In this document: piece after piece, positions 7,970 to 29,498 of the stretch
Layout: every line of letters begins with the position of its first letter
Numbering within the stretch: the stretch's first letter is position 1
Virus record (IMG/VR): IMGVR_UViG_3300028197_000104
Location: 1-29,498 of that record
Source of the DNA: a virus
DNA length: 29,498 nt
Direction: 5' to 3' (one strand)
Notes under the pieces: generated by a model
The model's input: only the letters and a program-made list of their open reading frames with translations
Told to the model about the DNA's origin: nothing
Database searches by the model: none
Translations under genes and position numbers: made by a program

Positions 7970-10129
7970 TTAATCCGTCTGTATGATTGTTATATTATTT
8001 TGGTCGGCACTATTACCAACGTCAATGTGTTGAGCTTCATTGTCTTGTAAAATCTGTATATCTGCTTCGCTACCAGTTTCAGTTTTTATGTAAGACCTAT
8101 GACTGTCGTTATATCTATTTATAATTGTGTAATCTCCTGAGGTTGAAGCAGTTGCGTCAAATTCATTATTTAATGTAGAGTATCTACCAGTTCTTGTTTC
8201 TGAAGATGAGCCTGTAATTTCGTTTGATGATGTAATAGTTTGTGTAATATCACCAGTAGAGTAATTTAATTCTTCACCACTAGCAGTTACCAATGTTTCT
8301 GCTTCAGTATTATCAACCCATTCAGTACCACATGATGAGTTTGCTTTATCCCAATAGTAACCATACCAATCACAATCCCATTCATTATCTATATCTTTTA
8401 AAAATTGTTCTAGTTCGGGATCTATATCGTAATCATCTTCGTAAGTATATTCATCTTCCCAGTTGTCTTCAGCTTGTTCGTCTTCCCAACCTGCATAATA
8501 CCAATCGTTTACTTTCTGCCAGTATATATCCCAATCGTCCCATGACCAATCTGTAATGTATTTGTCTTTTAAATCTTTTATCTTCCATGGTTTAGGTTGA
8601 TCGGGACACATCTCCCAATTAGGATAAGTACCACACCAACCATATAACTTACCAAATATTTTTTTACTGACATCTGTCCAAGATGTTTCTGTAACCTTTA
8701 ATGTCCAGTCATCTTTATAAAATTCGTTTAGATAATCAAGGTACTCTTGGTTACACCAAGAGGGATCATAACCATTGTAATCACAATAGTTTGATTGTGT
8801 TAATGTAGGAGGACCATTGTTGTTAATGTATTCTGCATTTGAATAGTAAGCGTCATCCATATAAAAATCTTCCCAAGTATAACCCTCTGATCCTGCCTCT
8901 GTTTCGTCTTTTGTTGTTTCAACCACATCAACTTCTTCAACTGTTGCATTGTAGGAAGTTAAACCATACTTCTCTAGTGTATCATTGTATGCCTCATCAT
9001 AAGCATCCCAATCTACATTGTCCCAATCAATAGAATCCCAATCAATCGTATCGTATGAGCAACCTGACTCACAACCTATTGCTTCAAAGTATGCCTCGTC
9101 CATTTCAGCATACATTTTCTTAGCGTCATCCCAATCTATTTTCTTTTCACCATCTGCATCCCATACCGAAATCTCATTGTTCTCGTCTATAATATCCCAT
9201 TCTTTTAAATCATCTTCCCATTGATCGTAATAAGAAGTATCAACCTCTGATTCTACAGCAGCCGTGTCTAATTCTTTTTCTTCTTGTGATTTTGTTTCTA
9301 CAATTGAGTCTGTTTCACTAACTGACATATCAGTTTGTACAATTGCGTTACTGTCTTCTTGTACAGATACATCTTCATTAATTAACGCCTCTTCCATATC
9401 TTGTGCTTTAGATTCTTCTTTAGACATATCAGATTTTTTATCTACGTCACCAAAAGATTTAGATGTATCTTCTTTTATATCATCTTCTAACTGATTTAGT
9501 TCTATAATATCAGTTTTATTAGTTTCAATTTTAGGAGGTGTTGGTGTTAAATCATTTGATGTAACTCTTACGGAGTTATATACATTTGTTATAGTTTGAG
9601 AGCCAGCGTCTGTTGATACTGTTACTTGTCCTACTGCACCATTGCTATCTGGTAATAATGTTATTGTCGCTTGACCTGAAGTTTCAACTGTTGCTGAGAA
9701 GGCAGTACCTTGTACTGTAACTGTAGCAAACCCAGCAGTTATGTTAACTTCACCACCTAGATTGGATACACTTCCTGATTCATAGGTAAAAGAACCTACA
9801 TTTACAGATACATTCATCGCTAACTCTATCGGCACAACCGAAGTATCAAAAGCAAATTCATCAATAATTAATTCTGTATTTGGTCCCATTGTAAATTTAG
9901 TATCGTCAAGGTAATGTATAATCATACCACCATCTTCACCTGTTTGAAGAAAGTCTTTCATCTGCAACTCATAACCCATGCCAGTTTTTTCAGTTGCACC
10001 ATCTCTCTCGTTGAAAGTTGACCCCATAGAGCCTACAACTTCTCCTACTTTGGGACTTGTTATTTGAGCTGATGTGATACTAGTACAGAAAAGTACCAGT
10101 ATTGATACTAGTAAAAAAATTCTTTGCAT
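7970..10129 (-). CDS. secreted FecR-domain protein with W/D-rich repeats (719 aa)
   Basis: Residues 1-21 are a clear signal peptide (cleavage near SAQ). Residues about 25-190 look like a FecR domain: a beta-rich core with the phrase YLDDTKFTMGPNTELIIDEF and VQGTAFSATVE. Residues 200-300 are acidic and disordered; 300-600 are extremely rich in Trp, Asp and Tyr, including an IDWD tandem repeat (361-378), and contain several Cys. The last 100 residues are Ser/Thr/Asn-rich and end in strand-like pieces (IQILQDN, ITIIQTD) resembling those of the curlin-like protein encoded next to it. FecR domains sense or bind ligands on the outer side of the membrane. It follows the curlin-like stop by one base, so it belongs to the csgF-csgG operon and may be a secretion substrate or fibre-associated protein. 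The sequence of the Trp/Asp region is unlike anything I know. Confidence 0.8.
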   Translation of the reverse strand: MQRIFLLVSILVLFCTSITSAQITSPKVGEVVGSMGSTFNERDGATEKTGMGYELQMKDFLQTGEDGGMIIHYLDDTKFTMGPNTELIIDEFAFDTSVVPIELAMNVSVNVGSFTYESGSVSNLGGEVNITAGFATVTVQGTAFSATVETSGQATITLLPDSNGAVGQVTVSTDAGSQTITNVYNSVRVTSNDLTPTPPKIETNKTDIIELNQLEDDIKEDTSKSFGDVDKKSDMSKEESKAQDMEEALINEDVSVQEDSNAIVQTDMSVSETDSIVETKSQEEKELDTAAVESEVDTSYYDQWEDDLKEWDIIDENNEISVWDADGEKKIDWDDAKKMYAEMDEAYFEAIGCESGCSYDTIDWDSIDWDNVDWDAYDEAYNDTLEKYGLTSYNATVEEVDVVETTKDETEAGSEGYTWEDFYMDDAYYSNAEYINNNGPPTLTQSNYCDYNGYDPSWCNQEYLDYLNEFYKDDWTLKVTETSWTDVSKKIFGKLYGWCGTYPNWEMCPDQPKPWKIKDLKDKYITDWSWDDWDIYWQKVNDWYYAGWEDEQAEDNWEDEYTYEDDYDIDPELEQFLKDIDNEWDCDWYGYYWDKANSSCGTEWVDNTEAETLVTASGEELNYSTGDITQTITSSNEITGSSSETRTGRYSTLNNEFDATASTSGDYTIINRYNDSHRSYIKTETGSEADIQILQDNEAQHIDVGNSADQNNITIIQTD
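9003..9047 (-). repeat. 15-bp tandem repeat inside the FecR-domain gene
   Basis: TCCCAATC recurs at 9006, 9021 and 9036 on the plus strand, an exact 15-base period. It encodes successive xIDWD or xVDWD pentapeptides (residues 361-375). A similar DWD motif is also coded near 9130. The repeat may vary in copy number between relatives. Confidence 0.75.
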
Positions 10130-10130
10130 T

Positions 10131-11222
10131 TTAACAACCCGAATTTGTTAACTGAATGGTTGTGTCTGCCGTTTGATTACTTCTATTGTATGTGTAATTA
10201 CAAGTGTCTGAGCCATCTTGGTCAACTAGTAAAGTGTAATCATAAATTGAATCACCATTTACTGTTAAGTTTGCTGTGTTGCCACCGTTTAATTGTATTA
10301 ACTCTACAACTGCACCACTTGTGTACAGATAAACTTGGGCATTATTATTTCCACCATTTCCATAATATCTTAATGTGTTATTATTACCACTTGTTACAGT
10401 TTTCATATAATTGTTATCACCGTACTGTACCATTCTAACGTGAGAACCTACAGCGTCTGGATGAACATCTAAAACATTTGAGTCACCTATGACATCATGT
10501 ACTTGATAATTGTCAGCACCGTGGCTAGACATATGTACTTGATTAGATGAACCAATAATATAAACATCTATTGTAGCACCCTCGTCACCAGTTGTGTCAG
10601 CAAATTGTCCGTGTGATTCTACATTAGGACCAATCATTATATTTGCTTTACTAGCGCCTACCATACCAGATGAGTTAGTGTTACCAAAAAACTCTACATC
10701 ATTTGAGTTACCTGACATAAGAACATATAGAAAGTGTGAGTCACCTCTTAATTCTGCCCAAAAATCATTTGAGTCTCCTCTTATATCTAAATCTATGTGG
10801 GTATCTTGTACATCATCACTTGCACGACCTGAAATATCTACAATGTTTGATGAACCTATAACATCTATATCATAGTAATGACCATCTGCGTCTGTATCAG
10901 CTAAATCTATTCTTAATTTATTAGAATTACCAGTTGCAATGTAATCAAAGGTCATATTAGAACCTTTGTATTTCATATCATCGCTATCGTCTGTTGTGTT
11001 TGTGTTACCTAATTGTTTAATAATAAGTGTAAGATTAGCACCATCAATTACAAATGGAGCTGAGGTAGATATACCAAATGCGTTGCCTGTACCATCTTGT
11101 TTGATGAAAACAGAGCCGTCTTTGTTTTGATTATCCTGTTGAATATATACGCTATTGCCAGCCCAACAACTAGTTGTGATGGCTACCAGAGTCACCAGAA
11201 TCATCATTATTAGTCTTATCAT
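10131..11222 (-). CDS. curlin-like secreted solenoid protein (363 aa)
   Basis: A signal peptide (residues 1-21, ending CWA) precedes a mature protein built of G-x-(S/N)-N turns followed by alternating hydrophobic residues: GNSN98, GSSN123, GDSN149, GDSH160, GNSN171, GSSN224, GDSN246, GDNN268 and GNNN279. Several spacings are 11 or 22 residues, the strand and repeat lengths of curlin (CsgA/CsgB), and the first mature residues (VYIQQDN, VFIKQDG) look like curlin strands. The Gln/Asn ladder of classical curlins is diluted, so it is a divergent amyloid-type subunit or a beta-solenoid. Cys340 and Cys363 could pair. The gene starts inside the end of csgG (53-base overlap) with an AGAGGAG site, matching a role as CsgG cargo. 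Confidence 0.7.
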   Translation of the reverse strand: MIRLIMMILVTLVAITTSCWAGNSVYIQQDNQNKDGSVFIKQDGTGNAFGISTSAPFVIDGANLTLIIKQLGNTNTTDDSDDMKYKGSNMTFDYIATGNSNKLRIDLADTDADGHYYDIDVIGSSNIVDISGRASDDVQDTHIDLDIRGDSNDFWAELRGDSHFLYVLMSGNSNDVEFFGNTNSSGMVGASKANIMIGPNVESHGQFADTTGDEGATIDVYIIGSSNQVHMSSHGADNYQVHDVIGDSNVLDVHPDAVGSHVRMVQYGDNNYMKTVTSGNNNTLRYYGNGGNNNAQVYLYTSGAVVELIQLNGGNTANLTVNGDSIYDYTLLVDQDGSDTCNYTYNRSNQTADTTIQLTNSGC

Positions 11223-12186
11223 CTTGCTCCTCTACTTGTTTCCACGCCTCTTCTTCAGCGGCGTCTTTTAATTTTTCGTCTGCTACTTCGTTACTTTTTT
11301 TAGCTTTCTTTTCTTCAAGGTACATTTCATAAGTCTTTTCAACTTTTTCTTCACCTATATTAACTCTAATATCGTCAACGTAGTCTTTGATTGCAGGTAC
11401 TTTTACCTTTGCTACGTCAAACTCCCATAAATCTTTTTCTGCACCATCATTAATTAAACTTACTACACCTGCTTCTATTGCTTTTCTAACTGCATATGTA
11501 ACTGGTTCATTTCTTGCAACACCAGCTTCAATTTCTACGAGTAATGTATCAGCGTCAAAATATTTAAATACATCACCACCTGTTTCAGCTGATAATATAG
11601 TTTTTTCTATCGTTGTTGATATTACAACTTCGCCAGTTTGTACATTAACTAGTCTTAATATGATTGTAATAACATCTTGTCGCCATTGTTTGTGAGTTTG
11701 TATTCCCAATACTCTTGCACCTATACCACCTGTTTTAGTATTGCTATCATAACCTACAATACCACCTGTTATATAAGCGCCTGCAAACAATAAAGGTGGT
11801 AAAGGTTCTGCACCTTCACCATTCACTTGTTGTCTTGTAGACCTTATTAATTTTCTTTCTTGTAATAGACTTGGCAGACTTGTTCGTTCTACTACTCTAA
11901 ACCATTTACCATTACCAGCGTCTTGTAAGGCCTTAATCAATAGTTGATAAGAACCTTGTGTAACTGCTGTTGACATTGAAGCAACATTATCACTTGGTTT
12001 CTTTTGACCTGTCATATCTGCAAAATCATATACTGCAATTATAACTGGTTCACCTTTTGGTGAATTAATTTCTGTTAAATCTTTATACTGAACAGCTTGA
12101 TTTCTTACATCAAAATCTAAATCAGGTTTTGTGGCACAATTAGTTAAAAAAAGTGTTAGTAATAATAGACCGATTATCTTAAACAT
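11170..12186 (-). CDS. csgG: CsgG-like curli secretion channel lipoprotein
   Basis: The 338-residue protein begins with a lipoprotein signal peptide (LFLTNC, lipid-bearing Cys17) and then follows CsgG closely: YDFADMTGQKKPSDN, the stretch around WFRVVERTSLPSLLQERK, the GAYITGGIVGYDSNTKTGGIGARVLG barrel region and the RLVNVQTGEVV strand. E. coli CsgG (about 277 residues) forms a nonameric outer-membrane pore that exports curli subunits. The extra length here is a Lys/Glu-rich, Asp/Ser-ending C-terminal tail after about residue 280. It follows csgF by one base and overlaps the curlin-like gene. No CsgE is visible, so gating may differ. A complete pore-forming core suggests the phage can add an export channel to the host outer membrane. 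Confidence 0.9.
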   Translation of the reverse strand: MFKIIGLLLLTLFLTNCATKPDLDFDVRNQAVQYKDLTEINSPKGEPVIIAVYDFADMTGQKKPSDNVASMSTAVTQGSYQLLIKALQDAGNGKWFRVVERTSLPSLLQERKLIRSTRQQVNGEGAEPLPPLLFAGAYITGGIVGYDSNTKTGGIGARVLGIQTHKQWRQDVITIILRLVNVQTGEVVISTTIEKTILSAETGGDVFKYFDADTLLVEIEAGVARNEPVTYAVRKAIEAGVVSLINDGAEKDLWEFDVAKVKVPAIKDYVDDIRVNIGEEKVEKTYEMYLEEKKAKKSNEVADEKLKDAAEEEAWKQVEEQDDKTNNDDSGDSGSHHN

Positions 12187-12701: not shown

Positions 12702-14399
12702 ATGATTAAAAAAAATAGTAAAATATGGTCTGTACTTGTAGTCTTTGGTTTATTATTGACTATTTACGTAACAAATCCCTCGTTGTTACAGTCAACTAAA
12801 CTAAATGTATTTGACTCATATCAAAAATTCGGTACAAATTATCAGTCAAAAAGTTTAATCTTACTGGACATATCTGACGCAGCTCTAAAAAAACAAGGAC
12901 AATGGCCTTGGAAAAGAGATGTACTCGGTCGTACTATTATCAATGCGTATAAGAATGGTGCAGCTTTGGTCGTTCTTCAAGTAGTATTTCCACACAAAGA
13001 TAGACTAGGAGGTGATGATATGTTTTTAAAAATGATATCAAAATATCCTGTAATATTAACTGAAACAAATAAAGTAAAAAACCTAACAAGTATAGAAAGA
13101 AAAGCACTAGCAATAGGTAACGTATCTGTACCTATAGACATTGATGGTACTATTAGAAAATTACCATTAGATGGTTCTATACCAGAAGTTATATTAAAAG
13201 TAATAAAATTTAATAGTAAAAAAGATGGTGATATATGGGTAGATTTTAGACATAATATTCCTAGAATAGATTATGCTGATAAAGATTGGTCTGCTATGAA
13301 AGGTAAAATAGTTTTTATTGGTACAACTTTCAAAGGTTCTACTTATGTTCTTACTCCCAATGGTTTAAAAAATACACATGAAATAATGGCAATCAGTACA
13401 GAAAACTTATTGTCTAAAAAATTTATTGATAGGCCAGAATGGATATCATATGCTGAATTAGCACATATACTTTTAGGTGTTTTATTTTTTCTTATCTTAA
13501 TACCAAGAGTTGGTGTTAAATGGTCTCTTATTTGGTATGCAATTTTTCTAACAGATTTATTTGCTTCTGCTGGATTTATGTTTTGGCAATATTCATATCT
13601 ATATGATTGGTTTAGTCCTTTAGTAATATGTTCTATTGTGTGGGCCCACTTAACCTATTTAAATTATGCTAGAGAGAACAAATTAAGGTTGCAAATCAAA
13701 AAACAATTTGAACATTATCTCTCTCCAGATATGGTCAAACAATTACAAAATAATCCTTCATTGTTAAAATTAGGTGGTGAAACAAGAACATTAACATTTT
13801 TGTTTTCTGATATTAGAGGTTTTACTCCTATCTCTGAAAAATATAAAACTAATCCTCAAGGTCTTACATTAGTTATAAACAAGTTCTTAACACCAATGAC
13901 TAACATTATAATGAAAAATGGTGGTACTATTGATAAGTATATGGGAGATTGTATTATGGCATTTTGGAATGCACCAATTGACGCACCAAATCACAAAGAA
14001 ATGGCAATAAATTCTGCGTTAGAGATGATAGAAAAACTAAAAGAATTGAATAGTAATGACGGCTTTGGTGACGGCAATAAACTAAATATTGGAATAGGTA
14101 TTAACTCAGGAGAAGCCGTGGTTGGAAATATGGGTAGTGAACAAAGATTTGATTATTCTGTTTTAGGTGACGCTGTAAATCTAGCAAGTAGATTAGAAGG
14201 CATATCTAAAAATTATGACGCAACCCTTGTAGTCGGCGAAGATACTTATCAAAGTATATCTCACAAATACAACTTTCAAAAATTAGATGATGTTCAAGTG
14301 AAAGGTAAATCAAATAAAGTAGCAATCTATACAGTTAGGGGAAGCAATGACTCAATTACAAAAAAAGAAACTACGAAAAAATTTGAAAAGATCAATTAG
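12702..14399 (+). CDS. CHASE2-transmembrane class III adenylate cyclase
   Basis: The 565-residue protein has an N-terminal membrane helix (about 9-24), an outer sensor matching CHASE2 (about 35-240, with LDISDAALKKQGQWPWKR), three membrane helices (about 250-268, 275-295, 303-320) and a cytoplasmic class III cyclase domain (360-545). Catalytic residues are all present: metal ligands Asp370 (FSDIRGFT) and Asp416 (MGDC), adenine-specifying Lys412 and Asp490 (LGDAVN), and transition-state Asn493 and Arg497 (NLASR). It should therefore make cAMP in response to an extracytoplasmic cue. It is divergent from csgF, and in bacteria CHASE2 cyclases are often found beside FecR-domain genes, one of which sits in the neighbouring operon. 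ATG 12702 has AAGGA. Confidence 0.9.
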   Translation: MIKKNSKIWSVLVVFGLLLTIYVTNPSLLQSTKLNVFDSYQKFGTNYQSKSLILLDISDAALKKQGQWPWKRDVLGRTIINAYKNGAALVVLQVVFPHKDRLGGDDMFLKMISKYPVILTETNKVKNLTSIERKALAIGNVSVPIDIDGTIRKLPLDGSIPEVILKVIKFNSKKDGDIWVDFRHNIPRIDYADKDWSAMKGKIVFIGTTFKGSTYVLTPNGLKNTHEIMAISTENLLSKKFIDRPEWISYAELAHILLGVLFFLILIPRVGVKWSLIWYAIFLTDLFASAGFMFWQYSYLYDWFSPLVICSIVWAHLTYLNYARENKLRLQIKKQFEHYLSPDMVKQLQNNPSLLKLGGETRTLTFLFSDIRGFTPISEKYKTNPQGLTLVINKFLTPMTNIIMKNGGTIDKYMGDCIMAFWNAPIDAPNHKEMAINSALEMIEKLKELNSNDGFGDGNKLNIGIGINSGEAVVGNMGSEQRFDYSVLGDAVNLASRLEGISKNYDATLVVGEDTYQSISHKYNFQKLDDVQVKGKSNKVAIYTVRGSNDSITKKETTKKFEKIN

Positions 14400-17249: not shown

Positions 17250-17831
17250 TTATTTGATTTTTGCGTTTCTTTTTCTATGACCATTCCAGGCAACAAAGCC
17301 ACCTAGTCTTAACGACCAGTATGCTAAATAGTTCATAAAATAGAAACCGTTAACTTCAATATTAATATCTCTAAAGATTTGATCTGCTTTCTTTTGATCT
17401 ACTAATAGAAGTTGGCCTTTCTTGTCTGCTGGTTTACAAGCAGAGTATTTGTACATATAATCATGTACAAGACCACCAATTAGTAACACGCCAACTGGTG
17501 AGAAAAAGGTTCTTAAAAATTTAGGTATACTTGCACCATCAAATGTAAATCCTTTTGGGATTACGTATTCAGTACCATTCAATGTATATTTAAAGTCTTT
17601 AATTATAACCCAATTTCTAGTGCCTAACAACCACATGATGATACCTTTCCAAAAACCTTTTGTTTTTGTAAGAATAGGTATAGGTTGTAGGTGTGGTAAT
17701 TCTATATAAGAAAATTTGAGATTACTAGTTTTTCTTTTATCTAGCATGTTTATAGCAAATCCTATTATAACAAATAAGATTAGTAGTGACCATTGCCAAA
17801 ACTTCATTGCTAATGCGATTAATAGTTCCAT
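17250..17831 (-). CDS. membrane-anchored DUF1353-family phage protein (193 aa)
   Basis: An N-terminal membrane helix (about 8-30) precedes a domain (about 75-185) containing the hallmark phrase IPKGFTFDGASIPKFLRTFFSP and GLVHDYMYKY, typical of DUF1353 proteins found in many tailed phages. The biochemical role of that family is unknown to me; the conserved Asp and His-Asp-Tyr residues suggest an active or metal site. It starts on the stop of the preceding gene (TAATG) and lies just before the holin-like gene, so it may act at the envelope. Confidence 0.75.
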   Translation of the reverse strand: MELLIALAMKFWQWSLLILFVIIGFAINMLDKRKTSNLKFSYIELPHLQPIPILTKTKGFWKGIIMWLLGTRNWVIIKDFKYTLNGTEYVIPKGFTFDGASIPKFLRTFFSPVGVLLIGGLVHDYMYKYSACKPADKKGQLLLVDQKKADQIFRDINIEVNGFYFMNYLAYWSLRLGGFVAWNGHRKRNAKIK

Positions 17832-18046
17832 TATTTCTTCTCTTTCTTTTTACTTGCTGTGACCATAGGTTTAATTGTTCCTAATCCTGGTCCTTTCGCT
17901 GTTGCTGTTAATTGAGGCATTGTTGCAGTATATCTTCTATCTGGAGAAAATTGAGCACCACCTAATGATGACATAGGTTTTAATGTGTCAACAGGTCCTA
18001 TAGCGAACCCTCTCATATACTCTCTTAATTCTTTATAAGTTTTCAT
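17831..18046 (-). CDS. small protein with capsid-targeting-like N-terminus (71 aa)
   Basis: It begins MKTYKELREYMRG, close to the T4 internal-protein leader MKTYQEFIAEA, although the residue after the expected cut (LRE|Y) is not the usual Ala or Gly. The rest is Gly/Ser/Pro-rich and ends in a Lys-rich tail (ASKKKEKK), like a small DNA-bound or core protein. It overlaps its neighbours by one and four bases within a chain of similar genes. A packaged internal protein is the likeliest reading; function unknown. Confidence 0.6.
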   Translation of the reverse strand: MKTYKELREYMRGFAIGPVDTLKPMSSLGGAQFSPDRRYTATMPQLTATAKGPGLGTIKPMVTASKKKEKK

Positions 18047-18846
18047 ACGTATTTTGATAGCAATTCTGAAGCAACTGTATTTCTAAACTCTTCCGATACT
18101 GTAGAATTAATCTGACCATCTACTACATATCTAAATGCTGTCATGCCAAATTCTTCAGAATACGTGCCTTTTTGTTTTTTTGATTTGATATTGTTTACTA
18201 TAGGTTTAATTTGATTGTTTTCTATATCTTGGTTAGATTCAATCTTATTAATTAAATTTTCTAGTTCAACTTTATCGTAGTCTTCACGTCTTAATAGACT
18301 TGTTAAATCTTTCTTTTTTTTCTTTACATGTACACCAGGTTCTGCGTCTGGTGGCATTGCAAGATTTGATCCATCTCCTACAGCATTTGTAGGTGCGTCT
18401 TCTTCTATTGCTTTATCTATTGCTTTATCTACAGAAGCTGCAATATTTGTTTTACTCTTATAGTTTTGATATTCTTTATCTAACTTGTCTTTTCTTTTGA
18501 CAAGCATATCTCTACCCACTACAGCATATCTTTTTGGGTCAGTTTGAATATCTTGTAATTCTTTTTTCTTTGCTTTATAATCGTCATCTGAGGTAACGCT
18601 TTCTCTAACAGGCATGCCTTTTTTAACCATACGTGATAACGCAAGACCTGATATAAAAGGTATCTTCTTTTTTCTTAAAGCGTCTAGCGCTCTATCAGGT
18701 ATTCTGTCAAATATTTTTCTTAATTTATTTGCCTGATCTATTGAGATTGTTTTATCTTTTAGTCCTGCATATTGTCTTGCCAACATGTCTATTTGACTAT
18801 CAGAAAATTCTCTTATAATTGATCTTACTTCTTTAAAAGTTTTCAT
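18043..18846 (-). CDS. conserved virion-type protein, capsid-targeting-like start (267 aa)
   Basis: It starts MKTFKEVRSIIRE, again like the T4 capsid-targeting sequence. The body is mostly helical and Lys-rich: a helix-turn region with RIPDRALDALRKKKIPFISGLALSRMV (in part, residues about 49-75), a charged linker with a Lys5 run near 176-180, and a C-terminal globular piece. I associate this family with T4-like marine phage structural blocks. Probably a head-internal or core-associated protein. It starts on the stop of the previous gene (TAATG). Confidence 0.6.
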   Translation of the reverse strand: MKTFKEVRSIIREFSDSQIDMLARQYAGLKDKTISIDQANKLRKIFDRIPDRALDALRKKKIPFISGLALSRMVKKGMPVRESVTSDDDYKAKKKELQDIQTDPKRYAVVGRDMLVKRKDKLDKEYQNYKSKTNIAASVDKAIDKAIEEDAPTNAVGDGSNLAMPPDAEPGVHVKKKKKDLTSLLRREDYDKVELENLINKIESNQDIENNQIKPIVNNIKSKKQKGTYSEEFGMTAFRYVVDGQINSTVSEEFRNTVASELLSKYV

Positions 18847-19436: not shown

Positions 19437-19798
19437 TATAATCCCTCTAAACTTGCTAACAAAGTTTTGTTTATTTTGATATTAGGCAGTTCATCTGGCG
19501 TTGTTATATTTAAATACTGTAAGAAAGTTTTTAGTACTGACCAATACTCTCTTTCAATCTTAAATAATAATAATGTAGCCGCTGCCTCATTACCAAAAAC
19601 ATTTGTTAATACTATAATATGATTTAATACTAATCTTGTTTTCAGTTCGCCTGTGGTTTTATATTTACGAAATAGACGTTTAAGATATTTAAATCTTTTC
19701 ACGTCTTCATAAAACTCCTGTTCCGTATCTAAATTAGGAACATTGTAGTTTTTTATAGCGTAAAATAACCAATTTTTCTTTGTTATCTTATCAAACAT
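19436..19798 (-). CDS. conserved small phage protein (120 aa), possibly DUF7207-like
   Basis: A helical, aromatic-rich protein with YDVKRFKYLKRLFRKY-like and LNHIIVLTNVFGNEAAATLLLFKIE segments (roughly residues 30-85). It resembles a short protein conserved next to structural genes in T4-like marine phages that I recall as DUF7207; I am not certain of that number. It is soluble, with no catalytic motif. It starts on the stop of the upstream gene (TAATG), so it is part of the same late operon. Confidence 0.6.
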   Translation of the reverse strand: MFDKITKKNWLFYAIKNYNVPNLDTEQEFYEDVKRFKYLKRLFRKYKTTGELKTRLVLNHIIVLTNVFGNEAAATLLLFKIEREYWSVLKTFLQYLNITTPDELPNIKINKTLLASLEGL

Positions 19799-20229
19799 TA
19801 GCCAAGCTCTGCATAAACTTTAACAGCGCCGTTTTGTAATGTTTCGTAACTACCTTTTAGTTTTAACTCTTTGCCAACTTTATGACTAATTCCATCATCA
19901 TTTATGTCAGAGCCGTCAGTATCTTTACCGAAACGACCACCATTAAATACTAAAGCACTTTCAAAAGTTCCCTTTTTATCATTAATTGTTATTGAGTCTT
20001 TTAACTGAACACCAATTGTTCTTAATCTAGTTTCTAATTGAGATAGAGCAGCCTCAGGCTGTATATACTCTTTATCAGCAATAGATCCAACAAAAGCATT
20101 CACTCTTTGTAAGATTGCAGGTTCATGTATATTGTGAGCACCCATTGATCCATCTTCTACTGAAGATTGATGAGGTGTTCCAACGCCCATAGTTCCGCCT
20201 TCTATTATGTGTTGTTTAAATGTTTTCAT
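19798..20229 (-). CDS. virion-type protein with capsid-targeting leader (143 aa)
   Basis: The N-terminus MKTFKQHIIE|GG fits the T4 prohead-protease rule ([L/I]-x-Glu followed by Ala/Gly) at the same position (10/11) as T4 internal proteins. After the predicted cut comes a GTMGVGTPHQ region and a helical then beta-rich domain ending KVYAELG. Proteins with this GGTMGVG start are, in my memory, conserved in cyanomyophage structural regions. I infer a packaged or head-associated protein trimmed during maturation. It overlaps the previous gene by four bases. Confidence 0.65.
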   Translation of the reverse strand: MKTFKQHIIEGGTMGVGTPHQSSVEDGSMGAHNIHEPAILQRVNAFVGSIADKEYIQPEAALSQLETRLRTIGVQLKDSITINDKKGTFESALVFNGGRFGKDTDGSDINDDGISHKVGKELKLKGSYETLQNGAVKVYAELG

Positions 20230-23085: not shown

Positions 23086-23963
23086 TACTTTTTGCTCCTT
23101 ACTTTTGCTGCTAAATCTTTATCTGCTTTACCCCAAGTACCAGATGATTTAGTTACGAAACTGTTTACTCTTGCCATAGCCCATTGTTGAGGTGTAGTAC
23201 CTGGTCTATGACCACCCTTCCATGCAGCCATGCCTCTATCATATACTTTTTTTAGTATTGAATATGACATACCTGTTTTTTCTGCTTTGTTTTTTACAGC
23301 AGTGATTGCCTCAATCAAAGCTTTTGCAGGATGTAATTGTTCGTTTCTAGTTTTCTTTTTTATTTGATCCATTTTCATTTGTATGTTCTCTATGTCATTT
23401 TTAGTTATAGCCATAGGTGTCTTATCTTTAGGTTCACCTGGATCTAAATCTTTTAACTTTGTTTGTAAAGCCATTTGACGTGTTCTTAATTTTGCAGTAT
23501 TCTCAGCGTCTTTAGAAGCATCCTCAATTAGTTTTCCAAGATGAGGTACGTTAGCATGTTTGATTGCCAATTGAGTTGGTATATCTAAATCCTTTATCAT
23601 CTTTCTAATTGCAGGTGTAATATCAGAAGCCTTTTTACCTTGCCATACTTTTTTAATATTTGCAATTTGTGTAGGGTTCATTTTACTTCTTAAATAATCA
23701 CCCACATCTTCTTTCTGCATTCCTTTTATATCAGGACTGTTATCAGATTTAAACTTGATGTTACCTCTTAATGTATCTTGTGTGACAGATACTTCGGTGT
23801 TACCTTGTGATCTTAAATCTTTTGCTCTTTGTTCAGCAGAGTCTTTTGTTTTAAAAGGTGACGCATATCTTTTGCCATCTTTACCTCTCCACCTTGCAAC
23901 GTGAACAACAGTAAACTCGTTTAGGGATTCATAATCCCAAGTACTTCTATATCTTGTTACCAT
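23085..23963 (-). CDS. conserved phage protein with DUF5824-like C-terminal domain (292 aa)
   Basis: The C-terminal 65 residues contain TGMSYSILKKVYDRGMAAWK and HRPGTTPQQWAMARVNSF, a strongly conserved unit in many marine viruses that I recall as DUF5824. Near the N-terminus, WRGKDGKRYASPFKTKDSAE looks like a small strand-rich fold, followed by helical Lys-rich sequence. No catalytic site is evident. The start overlaps the end of the 1135-residue gene by seven bases. A structural or packaged role is inferred from context. Confidence 0.65.
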   Translation of the reverse strand: MVTRYRSTWDYESLNEFTVVHVARWRGKDGKRYASPFKTKDSAEQRAKDLRSQGNTEVSVTQDTLRGNIKFKSDNSPDIKGMQKEDVGDYLRSKMNPTQIANIKKVWQGKKASDITPAIRKMIKDLDIPTQLAIKHANVPHLGKLIEDASKDAENTAKLRTRQMALQTKLKDLDPGEPKDKTPMAITKNDIENIQMKMDQIKKKTRNEQLHPAKALIEAITAVKNKAEKTGMSYSILKKVYDRGMAAWKGGHRPGTTPQQWAMARVNSFVTKSSGTWGKADKDLAAKVRSKK

Positions 23964-26900
23964 TTTTTACAACTCCAATATCTTGCTTTCCATTTAGGTC
24001 CTGGATTATCGCAATTATGTCTTGCTCTAAAGCTTCTTCTTCTTGCAGGATTGTCTGCTTTAATTTCCATATTAGGATCACCAAATGATACTTTGACTAT
24101 GTTGTCATTAGGGCCCTTTGTATAAACGTAAAACTTTTTAGAACCACCTCTAACAGGTTTGTTCAAAGTAACTTGTTTACCTTGATGTTCCGCTTCTGTA
24201 ATTTGTGATGGGAAGATTCCCCACTCGTCTGCTTCTTCTTTCATAAAGTCTTTAAACGTTAACTTAAAGCCTTCAGTAGCGCCTAAATCTTTTCTCATTT
24301 CTGCTTTAGATTTATTGTGCTTTCTTTGAAATTCCTCTGGATCTAAACCGCCTTCTTCCTTAGATTTAAGGTCTATTGCGATCTCTTTCATTCTTCCTTC
24401 TTGCATATTACTATTGGTGTCAATCACTTTATTGAACATTTTATTATATGTTTCTTCAACTTTAGATTGCCACTCTTCCCCATATCTTTCCTTATATTTA
24501 TTAATAGTTTCTTCTTTACTTGCCCATTCTTCTATATCTTTTAACTCAACCTTCTTATTCATTGGTTTCATGTCCTTATCTGCGTTTACATTGATTAAAT
24601 TATCACTATGTTTACTTGGACTATAAGAACCACCTTGATACTTAGGATTGTAGTGTTTTTCACCTGGTGTTATTGAAGATGTATATTTTGCCCAATCATG
24701 CCCTATTTCATAGGCTTCTGGTATACCATCAGTATTAAATTCTGTGCCTCTTTTTTCAGGCTCTTTTTCACTTCTTGTCTTCAATTCTCCATACATCTGT
24801 TTAAAACGTTTTGTATGTTTACTAGGTTTAGTTTTTGCTACTTTGTCAGCAGGCGATTGTTTGTAAGCAGACTTATCACTATCTGATTTATTACCTTGTT
24901 TTTCTAGGTGTTTGTCATGTGATTTCTTTTCTTTGTCTGATAGACCTGCGACATATTTTTTAGGTTGATCTGTTTCTTTATCATACGCTAATTTTCTTTT
25001 TTCTTTTAAGTTCATTGATCGTTCTTCTAATTTGACTGGATAGACAGGTGTTTCCATAATGTTATAAAGCCATGCTTTATGCAATTTCATATCCTCGTCT
25101 TCCAAGGTAACATAGTTAGTACCTCGTCTTATTATGACACCAGTTACATTAGTTTCCATATCATCAACAATATCACCTACGTCATATAAATGTTCCGATA
25201 TGTATTTGTCCCTTAATGTCATCTTATCTAACTCCTCTTTTGTTGAGGCAGTTATAAATGGTTTAAATCTAAATGCACCTGAAGATGTATAGTCCATACT
25301 TGCGGCTAACATCATTCCTTTTCTTACATTTCTAAATAAGTCTTGTGCATTTTTTGAGTTAGCAAAACTAGATGGCAAACCTTTTTTAAAAGTTGCAAAG
25401 TCTTTTGACTTAGCAGCCGATCTCATTTTACTGGCACTCATTCCCGTAGCACCTTCAGCGTCTGGATCTCTTTCTCCTGCTGAGGCTACATTTATACTAT
25501 CAAAGTCATATAGACCATGGCGGCTTTTAACGCCGTTGTATTTATTTAAGATAGTATCAAATTCTCTTACTCTATCACTACCTGCAACCATTGTTACGTT
25601 TGAATAACCTTTTTTGTATAGGTCTGTTGCAATATCTAAAATCATATTAGAAGGATTAACCATTATACTTCTAGCATGTCTAGGAAACATTTGTTTCATT
25701 GTTGTAAGTTTAGTTCTAAACGGTAGTGGATTTTTAGATGTATCTTCAGATTTACTTAAATAGATTCTGTAGTCATCTGTTCTTTGTTGTGCCACTTTAT
25801 TAATAAGTTTTTCGTGTCCTATTGTAGGTGGATTAAAACGGCCAAAGGTAAATGCTATTGATCTACCTTTGGCCTCTTTTATATTAGATAACGATTTTAG
25901 TTCAGCTGGTGTAATCTTACCATCTTCCATGATCTCGTTCAACTTTTTGAAAAATTTGAGATAATGATACTTTTCTAACATTTTATAAATCACATTTTTC
26001 GGAAGTCGGTTTTTCACACCAAACTTTCTAATCTCGTCTGGCGACATATCTTTACTAAAAGCGTCCTTTCGGTCGTTAATAGTCTTGTCACCAATATCAA
26101 TTAGAGTGTTAATAGAATCTTTAATTTCATCTAGCTTTTTAGAAACTAAACTTGACAAGTTATCAATATCGGAGCTTGTCAGGTCTTTTAGTTCTTCATA
26201 ATCAATCATGTCCCTTACGAGTTCACCTTTAACAACATCTATTTCAGAAACACGCTTCTGAAAATCCGTAACGTATTTTTCGGGTTCAAAGGTGCCTGGT
26301 TCTGGTTTTCTGATCCACTTGTTAGTGTCTATATCAAAAGTACCATCAGCCATGTCCCTTGCCTTATTAAATGTTACAGGATTAATTATGGAAAAGTAGT
26401 TGATAGGATGCTCTGTGCCTGGTATATTTTTACCATTTATCTGTCCTTGATATTCTCTAATCTCATCATGTACCTTTTCTTGTTCTGCTTCTGAACCAGG
26501 TATATCAAATAAGATATTAATATCTAGGTCGGCATCGGCCCTATATTGTTTTGTAAGTATTGAACCTATTAAGGTATACTTAACTACTTTACCAAATTTT
26601 TCAAATGTCTTTATACCATCAAGCACCATTTTCTTAACTGATGGTTTTAATTCTGGATTAGGTGTATCTGCTTTTGTAAATACGCCTGGTGCATATGTCT
26701 TTCTAGGTATGTCTATAATACTCTCACTAAAAGACTTTCTGTTTAAATTAATTTTAGGATAGATTTCTTGTGCCATCTTAACACCTGCCTTGTGATCTGA
26801 AGGATAATGCCAACCTGCATATACTCTTCCCATACCACATTCATCAGCAGCGTCAATCAAGCCTTCTCTATGTTCAGGATACTTTTCTGCATAGTATTCA

Positions 26901-27364
26901 CCAATCAATCTACTTTGTAAACTGTGACCACTAGGGTATGCTGGCGTCTTCATACTATCACTAACAAGTGGCATACTATTAAAATCTAATTTCATTGAGT
27001 CTGCAAGGTGATATGGTCTTGCTCTTTCAAACTTATTCTTAAATTTTCTAGCAATAGCTGCACCTGTTTCAGCAATCTTATCTGTATCAGTATTATCTAT
27101 ATCTAAATTGTTTTCTTTTAGATATTTTTCTATTGCATATTCTGATTTAGGATCATGGTTTTTTACTGATTGTTCAATCGCTTCATTTCTTTGTTTGAAC
27201 ATACCTTGCATTGCTGTCATCTCAGCCTTTGTTGCTGTAGATGTATTAGTGCTAGGTTTAGAACAAGACAATTCGTCTATGTTACCTGTGTAATTCTTAA
27301 TAGGTTTTTCTTCTACCTTTGCGTGTCTTAAATTTTCTATGTCTGTAAAATCTTTAAACTTCAT
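23957..27364 (-). CDS. 1135-residue multidomain protein: PAP2 phosphatase, nucleotidyltransferase, cytidylyltransferase, C-terminal virion domain
   Basis: Domains in order: a capsid-targeting-like start (MKFKDFTDIE); a PAP2-type acid phosphatase with KX6RP (109-117), PSGH (144-147) and RX5HX3D (180-190); a nucleotidyltransferase with GS (267-268) and DLD (279-281); a helical linker; a nicotinamide-nucleotide adenylyltransferase-like cytidylyltransferase with GRFNPPTIGH (508-517) and ATGMSASKMR (639-648); a Lys-rich region with AGLSDKEKKSHDKHL; and a C-terminal domain (about 1060-1135) with NPARRRSFRARHNC and YWSCKKW, common in marine phages. A second leader-like FKDFMKEEADE sits internally (1037-1047). 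All three enzyme sites look intact. It forms an ATGA overlap with the zeta-like kinase gene. Substrates are unknown; nucleotide or NAD metabolism is a reasonable guess. It may be a fusion of several virion proteins. Confidence 0.85.
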   Translation of the reverse strand: MKFKDFTDIENLRHAKVEEKPIKNYTGNIDELSCSKPSTNTSTATKAEMTAMQGMFKQRNEAIEQSVKNHDPKSEYAIEKYLKENNLDIDNTDTDKIAETGAAIARKFKNKFERARPYHLADSMKLDFNSMPLVSDSMKTPAYPSGHSLQSRLIGEYYAEKYPEHREGLIDAADECGMGRVYAGWHYPSDHKAGVKMAQEIYPKINLNRKSFSESIIDIPRKTYAPGVFTKADTPNPELKPSVKKMVLDGIKTFEKFGKVVKYTLIGSILTKQYRADADLDINILFDIPGSEAEQEKVHDEIREYQGQINGKNIPGTEHPINYFSIINPVTFNKARDMADGTFDIDTNKWIRKPEPGTFEPEKYVTDFQKRVSEIDVVKGELVRDMIDYEELKDLTSSDIDNLSSLVSKKLDEIKDSINTLIDIGDKTINDRKDAFSKDMSPDEIRKFGVKNRLPKNVIYKMLEKYHYLKFFKKLNEIMEDGKITPAELKSLSNIKEAKGRSIAFTFGRFNPPTIGHEKLINKVAQQRTDDYRIYLSKSEDTSKNPLPFRTKLTTMKQMFPRHARSIMVNPSNMILDIATDLYKKGYSNVTMVAGSDRVREFDTILNKYNGVKSRHGLYDFDSINVASAGERDPDAEGATGMSASKMRSAAKSKDFATFKKGLPSSFANSKNAQDLFRNVRKGMMLAASMDYTSSGAFRFKPFITASTKEELDKMTLRDKYISEHLYDVGDIVDDMETNVTGVIIRRGTNYVTLEDEDMKLHKAWLYNIMETPVYPVKLEERSMNLKEKRKLAYDKETDQPKKYVAGLSDKEKKSHDKHLEKQGNKSDSDKSAYKQSPADKVAKTKPSKHTKRFKQMYGELKTRSEKEPEKRGTEFNTDGIPEAYEIGHDWAKYTSSITPGEKHYNPKYQGGSYSPSKHSDNLINVNADKDMKPMNKKVELKDIEEWASKEETINKYKERYGEEWQSKVEETYNKMFNKVIDTNSNMQEGRMKEIAIDLKSKEEGGLDPEEFQRKHNKSKAEMRKDLGATEGFKLTFKDFMKEEADEWGIFPSQITEAEHQGKQVTLNKPVRGGSKKFYVYTKGPNDNIVKVSFGDPNMEIKADNPARRRSFRARHNCDNPGPKWKARYWSCKKW

Positions 27365-28047
27365 CTTTTACGAGCCTCTAATTCTTTTTTCATCCATTGT
27401 TTGGCCTTATAATTTTGTACTGGTGATGTAATATATCTTCGTACTAGTTTGCCAATTCTGTTCATTGTAAGAGTGACTAACTCTAAATCAGATTTATTGT
27501 TATCTACAACAATAAAATTACTCATACCAAACAGTCTTTGAAACTTACCAATGTTATTCTGTACACTTTCCCAACTAGACTTTGTAATATATTGTGGAAT
27601 AGTTCTCTCACGTCTAGCGTTTCGTGCCACTGCTACATCTAAAGTTGTGTTCACAAATACCATATAACAATCATAACCCATTTGTTTCAACATGTTATGG
27701 TTTCTAGCAATGACATCATAATCTCTACCTGTACTGTCAATTACTAAACCAAGTCTGCCTTGTACATATTTATCTAATTGGGACACAGCAGTTAATTTAG
27801 CTCTTTGTCTAATTATATTTCTAAAATATTGTTCTTCATCTGGCATAGATAAAGATAAATTTGCTGTCTTTAAATTTCTTTCAAAAGTTACATCTGAATT
27901 AACTACTTTTAATCCTGTACCTGAAAAGGCACTAGCAGTTACAAACGTTTTACCTGAACCAGGACCCCCAGCTAAAAAGAAAGCTTTGAATATACCTGGG
28001 TCGTAAACGCCTTCAGATAAATGTTGTATAAAACTATTGACTGCCAT
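27361..28047 (-). CDS. zeta-toxin-like P-loop kinase with capsid-targeting-like start (228 aa)
   Basis: A Walker A loop GGPGSGKT (27-34) is followed by NSD and an FERN segment, then LVIDSTGRDYDV and NARRERT, the pattern of zeta-toxin/AAA_33 kinases. Zeta toxins phosphorylate UDP-amino sugars and block cell-wall synthesis, but others in this fold act on different small molecules or RNA. No antitoxin gene is adjacent. The N-terminus MAVNSFIQHLSE|GVYD contains a prohead-protease-type site (L-x-E|G) just before the kinase core, so the enzyme may be packaged and trimmed. It overlaps adenylate kinase by 14 bases. Confidence 0.75.
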   Translation of the reverse strand: MAVNSFIQHLSEGVYDPGIFKAFFLAGGPGSGKTFVTASAFSGTGLKVVNSDVTFERNLKTANLSLSMPDEEQYFRNIIRQRAKLTAVSQLDKYVQGRLGLVIDSTGRDYDVIARNHNMLKQMGYDCYMVFVNTTLDVAVARNARRERTIPQYITKSSWESVQNNIGKFQRLFGMSNFIVVDNNKSDLELVTLTMNRIGKLVRRYITSPVQNYKAKQWMKKELEARKR

Positions 28048-28621
28048 CTTCTATCTTTCTTATAATTTCTTTTGCTGTATCTTCAGGTGAGCCACCCTCA
28101 GCACTTATGCTAATAAAGTTATCTTTTTTTCTAAAGTATTCTACAACAGGACCTGTTTCTTTTTTGTATAATTCTATTCTGTTACCTATAATTTCTTCCG
28201 TATCATCTGCTCTTCCTCTTGCAAGTAATCTACGTAATACTTCTTCTCTACTGACATCTAAAAATACTGCGTAATCGTAACCTACTTCGTTTTTTTCCAT
28301 GTCTTCAACTTGTTTCATGTATCTAGGCCAACCATCTAATACGTAACCTTTTGGCGATTCATCTACTTTATTTATTATTAACTCTAATACTATATCGTTA
28401 GGAACAAACTCGCCTCTATCAATAATACTTTTTGCAATCTTGCCTATTTCTGATCCTTTTTCTACTTCTTTTCTCAACATACCACCTGGGTAAATGTGAG
28501 TAATATCGTATTCTTTAACAAGATATTCTGTATAGGTTGACTTACCTGAACCTGGTCCACCTAACATAATAATTCTTTTACGGCCCATTGCCTCAAATAT
28601 AAAATCTCTAAAACTTTTCAT
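28034..28621 (-). CDS. adenylate kinase with capsid-targeting-like N-terminus (195 aa)
   Basis: The protein has Walker A GGPGSGKS (21-28), GGMLRKE in the AMP-binding part, the signature DGWPR (96-100; DGFPR in most relatives) and an RGRADDTEEIIGNR segment of the lid, short-lid type. It interconverts ATP, AMP and ADP. Before the core lies MKSFRDFIFE|AMG, a close match in sequence, length and cut site to the T4 leader MKTYQEFIAEA. A core metabolic kinase with such a leader is odd and suggests it travels inside the virion. ATG 28621 overlaps the preceding stop (ATGA). Confidence 0.85.
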   Translation of the reverse strand: MKSFRDFIFEAMGRKRIIMLGGPGSGKSTYTEYLVKEYDITHIYPGGMLRKEVEKGSEIGKIAKSIIDRGEFVPNDIVLELIINKVDESPKGYVLDGWPRYMKQVEDMEKNEVGYDYAVFLDVSREEVLRRLLARGRADDTEEIIGNRIELYKKETGPVVEYFRKKDNFISISAEGGSPEDTAKEIIRKIEDGSQ

Positions 28622-29498
28622 CCTTTTATCCAGTTCTTAGCAAGTGTAAAGTTAGCAGTACTAAACTCTAATCTATCTACTAGTTTTACTGCATTGCCCA
28701 TTCTATCTACAGCAACATAGCCTTCAGGATTAGTTACTACGAACCCATTACCTTTTTGTAAAAACGTTCCCATTGATTTAATTTGATTCATTTTACTAAC
28801 TAGAAAGTTTTTTACTTTTTGTAAAGTTATGTAACTAGCAATTGCAAAGTAAATATCATTATCATTGTTATCAATAAATCTTAAGCCTTCATTTTTTATT
28901 TGTTGATATTTCTTTTTAGCATTTTCAGTTTTTCTTTTTGAAACCTCATCATCTAATACTTTAGCGTAATATGTTTTAAATTCTGATTGTAATTTTTTAA
29001 CATTCTGTATATTTTGTCCTGCTCTTATTTGTGTATTGAAAAATATTTTTAATCTAGCACCTACAGATAACAAATTGGTTTGTCTTTTTAATAAGTCTAG
29101 TACTCTTTTACCTTTTGTTATTGATCCCATTGCCATTCTTAACATACTATCATATTGAGCGCTTTCTGTTGTTGTAAATGTAGCAACACCAGATGAATCT
29201 TTATAACTTGCGTCATCAAAAAATACTGCTGGCGTCTTTGCAAAACGATTTACATTGACGCCAAAGCTTGCTTTCAGATTAGCCATCTTTTTTCCTGTGT
29301 AACTAGTGTGAAAGATGATACCTAATTTAGCTCTTTTAATTTTTTTAGCAAGATCAGTATTTTCTGGTACGGCATAAGTTATAGTATTAGGTGTAAACGC
29401 AATAGCATCCTCACCTCGTATAGATACCGACTTCAAGTCTGCTGGTGTAAATAACAAGTCACCTTGTACGACACCACGTATACCAAGTTTTGGTAATT
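28618..29498 (-). CDS. conserved phage protein, DUF6267-like, 5' end cut by the window edge
   Basis: The frame is open through the right edge: the codons before a possible TTG start at 29457 read KLGIRGVVQGD and continue without a stop, so the true start lies outside. The visible part has LLFTPADLK, AFTPNTITYAV, a helical middle and a Val/Asn-rich end with GFVVTNPEGYVAV. I recall this pattern as a family widespread in T4-like phages (DUF6267), role uncertain. It leads directly into adenylate kinase (ATGA overlap), so it is part of the cargo block. Confidence 0.7.
   Translation of the reverse strand, partial: LPKLGIRGVVQGDLLFTPADLKSVSIRGEDAIAFTPNTITYAVPENTDLAKKIKRAKLGIIFHTSYTGKKMANLKASFGVNVNRFAKTPAVFFDDASYKDSSGVATFTTTESAQYDSMLRMAMGSITKGKRVLDLLKRQTNLLSVGARLKIFFNTQIRAGQNIQNVKKLQSEFKTYYAKVLDDEVSKRKTENAKKKYQQIKNEGLRFIDNNDNDIYFAIASYITLQKVKNFLVSKMNQIKSMGTFLQKGNGFVVTNPEGYVAVDRMGNAVKLVDRLEFSTANFTLAKNWIKG

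Follow-up and report, generated by a model that had tools for sequence, protein, structure and literature searches.

Several genes of a marine T4-like phage start with a short leader that resembles the capsid targeting sequence (CTS) of the T4 internal proteins, which raises the question of whether the phage packs enzymes into its head along with the DNA. The window, i.e., the whole stretch of DNA analyzed here, covers 29,498 bases of the record of a T4-like marine phage and is a fragment. The nearest matches of its genes are in uncultured relatives and, among isolates, in the Kyanoviridae members HTVC008M (a Pelagibacter phage) and Melnitz (a Methylophilales phage), which have homologs of DUF6267, the zeta-like kinase, the 20229 protein, and the NMNAT protein. 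In syn9, Melnitz, and HTVC008M, the cluster of leader genes has the helicase gene gp41 on one side and the primase gene gp61 on the other. Elsewhere in the window, the minus strand at 7970-12186 encodes a set resembling curli/CsgG-type export, consisting of two proteins that look secreted and repeat-like and one of 338 aa whose N-terminus is like that of a lipoprotein. A plus-strand gene (12702-14399) seems to encode a membrane-bound adenylate/guanylate cyclase whose sensor domain is extracellular, which is unusual in a phage.

Leader-bearing genes of the window

The genes and leaders considered are listed below (↓ marks a known or predicted cleavage position).

17831..18046, minus strand: 71-aa protein, partial leader MKTYKELREY without Glu10, not among the best window starts by the profile described below
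18043..18846, minus strand: 267-aa protein, partial leader MKTFKEVRSIIRE, internal IEE↓DAPTNAVGDGS; TATAAATG lies 66 bases upstream
19798..20229, minus strand: 143-aa protein (the 20229 gene), fold unassigned, leader MKTFKQHIIE↓GGTMG; homologs in HTVC008M and Melnitz
20200..20229, minus strand: leader of the 20229 gene; 25.1 bits, top of 489 window starts
23957..27364, minus strand: 1,135-aa multidomain protein with a partial leader, PAP2, nucleotidyltransferase, NMNAT/cytidylyltransferase, and a C-terminal KFYVY domain
27361..28047, minus strand: zeta/AAA_33 P-loop kinase (Pfam AAA_33 and Zeta_toxin), shifted-register leader MAV-NSFIQHLSE↓GVYDPG
28012..28047, minus strand: leader of the zeta-like kinase, residues 1-12, predicted cut E12↓G13; F6, H9, L10, and E12 fall on CTS positions 4, 7, 8, and 10
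28034..28621, minus strand: adenylate kinase (Adk), 195 aa with a 10-residue leader; Pfam ADK E = 1e-38, profile from residue 19
28592..28621, minus strand: Adk leader MKSFRDFIFE, predicted gp21 cut E10↓A11; conservation in 22 homologs, indels right after E10
28618..29498, minus strand: DUF6267 gene, truncated by the window end; leader MYSFKQYLSE↓SKNTHLEH in a same-species contig (L002)

The original prediction had likened the starts of Adk (MKSFRDFIFE↓AMGRKR) and the 20229 gene to the T4 leader, and the translations agree with it in both cases; T4 IPII and IPIII do both begin MKTYQEFIAE↓A. The HLSE↓G reported for the zeta-like kinase is also present (MAVNSFIQHLSE↓GVYD), with the S-F-x-x-H-L-x-E motif two residues later. 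The ATG of Adk, of the multidomain protein, and of the 20229 gene overlaps or abuts the stop of the preceding gene in each case, so these start codons are sound. The Adk and 20229 leaders begin at residue 1; the aromatic-or-equivalent positions are occupied by F4/F7 in Adk, F4/H7 in the 20229 gene, and F6/H9 in the zeta-like kinase, and the processing positions by I8/E10 in the first two. Three further genes had been put forward as weaker versions, at 18046, 18846, and 27364. These do not carry complete leaders: they keep the front half only and lack the processing positions and a proper cleavage end. The 18046 gene is without E10, the 18846 gene has only IRE at residues 11-13, and the 27364 gene (the PAP2 form of the multidomain protein) starts MKFKDFTDIE, with both F kept and [LI]xE lost.

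The leader is a separate module, as indicated by variation after E10 in Adk, by the domain starts, by low model confidence over the leader, and by leaderless forms of DUF6267. Pfam, NCBIfam, a homolog alignment, an AlphaFold model, and fold comparison all identify Adk as an ADK fold with P-loop and conserved core, and its best fold matches are PDB adenylate kinases. The NCBIfam adk models start at residue 14-17, and the pLDDT of the leader is 58 vs ~90 over most of the core. Across 22 homologs down to 51% identity, M1, K2, F4, and E10 never vary, and F7 is kept in at least 90%; the residues immediately past E10 differ in kind and number. The leader of DUF6267, like that of Adk, lies outside the domain (PF19782 spans residues 13-402 of a complete homolog), and the leaderless forms in S-SZBM1 (MAKNTHLEHLEDD, MAKNTHLEH...) and S-CRM01 (MAKDGKNVHLEH...) both start at the predicted cut or close to it. 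The zeta-like kinase leaders comprise 19 distinct 10-mers, every one ending in E ahead of G[LV]YDP. For the 20229 gene there are 16 distinct leader variants, and Pfam and PHROG searches with its protein gave no match. The P1' residue in the window is A in Adk and G in the 20229 gene; many Adk orthologs have Q, K, or T instead, so that cutting may be incomplete in these, any cleavage ahead of Lys or Gln being putative.

The DUF6267 protein (L002 1547-2767) has an invariant KWDG (K58-D60-G61) in a context like motif I of ligases and capping enzymes. It is possibly a nucleotidyltransferase, which stays a hint because the AlphaFold model is poor (pLDDT 58) and a profile search gave no convincing PDB relative.

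The leader compared with chance and with T4

A strict pattern, M[KRN]x[FYIL]xx[FHYIL][ILMV]xE[AGS], was found in the window and five relatives at 5 of 1,299 N-terminal Met and at none of 3,094 internal Met, and a looser pattern at 16 and 4 of these, respectively, with both patterns chosen post hoc, after the sequences had been inspected. The enrichment expected for a bare [L/I]xE at residues 8-13 proved weak (37/1299 N-terminal vs 31/3094 internal Met), because that rule leaves out the aromatics at positions 4 and 7.

We also built a 10-residue profile from the four leader families of the window's clade only; for S-CREM2 and T4, the training set was without any leader of either phage. Among the 489 window starts, the 20229 gene was followed by Adk (20.9 bits), and all other 487 scored at most 5.5 bits. 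With their own family held out of training, these two genes stayed first and second (the 20229 gene at 20.8 bits), and held-out families in general still ranked at or near the top. When the clade profile was applied to 3,030 start codons of T4, ranks 1 to 4 were gp61.1, IPIII, IPII, and IPI. The leader is far above chance for Adk (28034-28621) and for the 19798-20229 gene. Two other profiles were rejected: a sliding one that ignored the N-terminal register was noisy (AUC 0.75, many false tops), and one from IPII and IPIII alone was too narrow.

Mutagenesis of the T4 CTS has shown that targeting depends on residues 4 and 7 and processing on residues 8 and 10; gp21 cuts after L/I-x-E, and the IPIII leader alone suffices to package a foreign protein (PMC9026906). 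The positions conserved in the marine leaders are those of the T4 mutational determinants. A gp21 gene (Peptidase_S77, PF03420) was found in 6 of 12 related records, the window being a fragment without that region, and the gp23 cleavage site, FLTE↓A in T4, reads FLSE↓A or FLTE↓A in the relatives. The original prediction of a T4-type CTS cut by gp21 is thus supported by the profile match to the T4 internal proteins, by the mutational positions, by the gp21 and gp23 site of the relatives, and by virion mass spectrometry of five phages (see below).

The top T4 hit, gp61.1 (NC_000866 18966-19130, L287), joins a CTS to a copy of the N-terminal arm of mature gp23. The copy and the arm align over 37 residues (z = 12.8), with gp61.1 Glu10 falling on gp23 cleavage Glu65. 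The virion-detected ORF160 of S-CREM2 (L283 28343-29236) likewise carries a gp23-arm mimic (z = 13.0), and ORF97 of S-SCSM1 (93121-93306) is similar to these mimics by eye. Such a copy of the gp23 arm could possibly act as a docking device on the capsid wall. In the window, the internal IEE↓DAPTNAVGDGS of the 18043..18846 protein resembles the gp23 cleavage site FLSE↓AAPTNATGSS. Across its family, E↓[DE]AP[AT]NAVGDGS (window ~18400-18402) occurs in unrelated contexts and matches the same-clade gp23 site E↓AAPTNATGSS. The score of this protein against whole gp23 was not significant (z = 0.1), the short match sitting at the cleavage site.

A multidomain protein with predicted cleavage joints

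The 1,135-aa protein has Pfam PAP2, Polbeta, and CTP_transf_like domains and PHROG matches to cytidyltransferase and phrog_7595. Three candidate cleavage joints lie between or ahead of its domains.

26723..26725, minus strand: P1 Glu214, joint KSFSE↓SIIDIPR at the PAP2/nucleotidyltransferase boundary
25874..25876, minus strand: P1 Glu497, joint NIKE↓AKGRSIAFTFGRFNPP ahead of the NMNAT domain
24194..24196, minus strand: P1 Glu1057, joint SQITE↓AEHQGK ahead of the C-terminal domain

In phages without PAP2, the same gene starts MRFKDF[LI]KE↓SIIDIPR, and where PAP2 is inserted the joint reads KSFSE↓SIIDIPR or KSLKE↓SIIDIPR; Glu followed by S or A was found in 43/43 distinct sequences listed. The NMNAT joint varies as IKE↓A, LNE↓A, or ITE↓G, and a few distant sequences deviate from this (KTE↓G, KVE↓A, QTE↓E). 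A stand-alone NMNAT homolog in Melnitz starts MKKFSEIIE↓ARGDTAVFTFGRFNPP, and its leader end, IIE↓ARGDTAVFTFGRF, corresponds to this joint. All 21 distinct sequences of the C-terminal joint have ITE, INE, IAE, LQE, LEE, IYE, or MME and then A or S. The motif preserved across the domain joints can be written [LIF]xE↓[SA], and it persists where PAP2 has been inserted. The number of [LIMFV]xE↓[ASG] sites in the protein is not above chance (5 vs 3.9 in shuffles), and therefore only the placement and conservation of the joints serve as an argument. On these grounds, the protein looks like a capsid polyprotein that gp21 would cut at the joints.

Virion proteomes, rival explanations, and known systems

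Leader-bearing enzymes homologous or analogous to those of the window are found in the virions of five sister phages. In S-CREM2, a SAM hydrolase, a kinase, and a cytidylyltransferase were detected (PMC10665884), and these start MKDFDSFLEE, MKRFDAFLTE, and MKNFSSFLTE, respectively. A cytidylyltransferase was detected in S-SM1 (PMC3037559; leader MKKFSAFLNE) and another in S-SZBM1 (PMC9146016; MRFRQFIIE), and an NMNAT in S-SCSM1 (PMC9602691; MKSFLQFLKE). For S-CRM01, PMC10665884 reports a virion kinase, whose leader is MISFDQFLSE. In S-CREM2, all four genes with a profile score of at least 7 were virion-detected vs 52/219 overall (p = 0.003), and for non-structural genes the counts were 3 of 14 detected vs 0 of 147 (p = 5e-4). 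The NMNAT of S-SCSM1 had the top profile score among 4,450 starts, and in this phage 7 of the 17 genes in the gp41-gp61 interval encode virion proteins vs 1/193 elsewhere outside the structural blocks (p = 5e-8). ORF30 of S-SCSM1 scored 19.6 yet is without a virion-protein label. Several virion-detected cluster proteins have no leader, and therefore other packaging routes exist. The leader of the HTVC008M NMNAT is degenerate (MKTLKELLRK).

Other virion proteins carry leader-like stretches away from the N-terminus. ORF12 of S-CREM2 (L284 7704-10313), annotated as Cas9, has the leader core ~16 residues in (LRFASFMAE↓AA), and the core is kept in its homolog g128 of S-CRM01 (L293 5922-6473; LSLDSFIKE↓AA). 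The Cas9 label was rejected, as it had no Pfam support. The virion-detected ORF93 of S-SCSM1 (91626-91835; 69 aa) ends in a leader-like RTFKEFLEYIE, which raises the possibility of tags at the C-terminus as well.

The signal itself has been described in T4. The virion papers examined for the sister phages do not mention the leader and report no Adk, zeta-like kinase, or PAP2-nucleotidyltransferase-NMNAT polyprotein. We found no published virion proteome for the window's clade, and no Adk reported in a virion in the proteomics literature examined. The literature searched contained no report of a CTS on a modular set of metabolic enzymes or on a polyprotein in ocean phages; the one open-access paper that pairs "capsid targeting" with "cyanophage" is a T4 review.

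The virion detections could reflect co-purified contaminants, the enzymes being ordinary late cytosolic proteins and the leader a neutral inherited N-terminus, and the authors of the S-CREM2 (PMC10665884) and S-SCSM1 (PMC9602691) studies themselves raised co-purification as a possibility. This is quite improbable given that abundant replication enzymes are missing from the virion lists of the same phages whereas leader-bearing enzymes are listed, that the T4 CTS positions are kept across unrelated folds, and that the leader is present or absent exactly at the cut point. It is also unlikely that the leader serves an assembly task only, such as scaffold filling or core stabilization, with most of the protein destroyed or released and nothing functional injected. 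The T4 core proteins gp22, gp67, and gp68 are indeed degraded by gp21 (PMC9958956), and head assembly would account for the late timing suggested by TATAAATA, which lies upstream of gp21, gp22, and DUF6267 and occurs 27 times on the coding strand vs 2 times on the other strand in one genome (G001). However, the cargo proteins have catalytic folds in which the P-loop (GGPGSGK) and FGRFNPPT motifs are intact, and their homologs persist in mature CsCl-purified virions.

That the F-x-x-F-[LI]-x-E leader is instead a general interaction motif for another phage machine, such as the replisome or a membrane complex, would fit the position of the cluster, which in syn9, HTVC008M, and Melnitz has gp41 and gp61 as neighbors. 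We consider this very remote, as the profile scans show no outstanding replication gene, the gp41-gp61 interval is enriched in virion proteins and not in replisome proteins, and the match to T4 IPI-III is specific.

We thus favor, with a probability of roughly 0.8, the reading that the Adk/20229-type leader is a T4-type capsid targeting sequence that places enzymes in the prohead and is cut by gp21, the enzymes then probably being ejected. Packaging and gp21 trimming are well-supported readings of the leader; for the window phage's own Adk, both are predicted from its sequence. The leader genes would be expressed late, judging by the strand bias of TATAAATA, and late in infection their products would bind the prohead scaffolding core through aromatic residues 4 and 7. 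A prohead protease of the gp21 family would then cut after Glu10 (L/I/F-x-E↓), and the mature enzymes would remain in the head with the DNA. The putative cargo comprises adenylate kinase, the zeta-like kinase, the 20229 protein, the DUF6267 protein, and the polyprotein (PAP2, nucleotidyltransferase, NMNAT), which would be cut at its joints. To judge from the internal proteins of T4 and from CTS fusions, the tagged enzymes would probably enter the host cell together with the DNA. An early metabolic or anti-defense kit (NMNAT, Adk, kinases, SAM hydrolase) is plausible, and its role in the cell would most likely be nucleotide/NAD supply or defense evasion before phage gene expression.

A T4-type tag on the window enzymes, together with tagged relatives in sister virions, suggests that this phage probably carries an enzyme kit with its DNA. 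We lean slightly towards a broader reading, in which marine T4-like phages use the CTS as a swappable tag for a modular kit (adenylate kinase, zeta-like kinase, NMNAT, PAP2 phosphatase, nucleotidyltransferase, SAM hydrolase, and protein kinase), part of it a polyprotein cut into injected enzymes, and gp61.1 is an unrecognized tagged protein of T4. For more than a decade, cyanophage virion proteomics has found metabolic enzymes and left undecided whether they are cargo or contamination; a cuttable tag offers a mechanism. The leader also gives a one-peptide test and a sequence-based prediction of cargo lists in many ocean phages, and it implies that some auxiliary metabolic genes act ahead of any phage transcription.

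Among known systems, T4 IPI, IPII, and IPIII are like the marine proteins in having 10 N-terminal residues with aromatics at 4 and 7, an aliphatic residue at 8, Glu10, and a gp21-type site, attached to otherwise unrelated proteins. The T4 CTS cargo consists of small internal proteins, of which IPI is an anti-restriction factor, whereas the marine cargo comprises metabolic enzymes and a multidomain polyprotein, encoded in the gp41-gp61 interval of Kyanoviridae-like phages. T4 Alt, an ADP-ribosyltransferase, is an enzyme in the head that is trimmed by gp21 and ejected, as is predicted for the marine enzymes. Alt is unrelated to adenylate kinase or NMNAT and is cut at ITE-6 and LTE-619 (PMC5694885), in contrast to the predicted cut at a CTS-like Glu10 here. 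In phiKZ and SPN3US, a prohead protease of the same superfamily cuts the propeptides of ejection proteins and the virion RNA polymerase after x-x-E. The propeptides of these jumbo phages are mostly >100 residues with A/S/G-x-E sites, whereas the leaders here are 10-12 residues with I/L/F-x-E, and a propeptide of the phiKZ/SPN3US type was rejected on that basis. Also close to the window's proteins are the virion NMNAT, kinase, and SAM hydrolase of S-CREM2, S-SCSM1, S-SZBM1, S-SM1, and S-CRM01, which share the enzyme families or role and the same leader.
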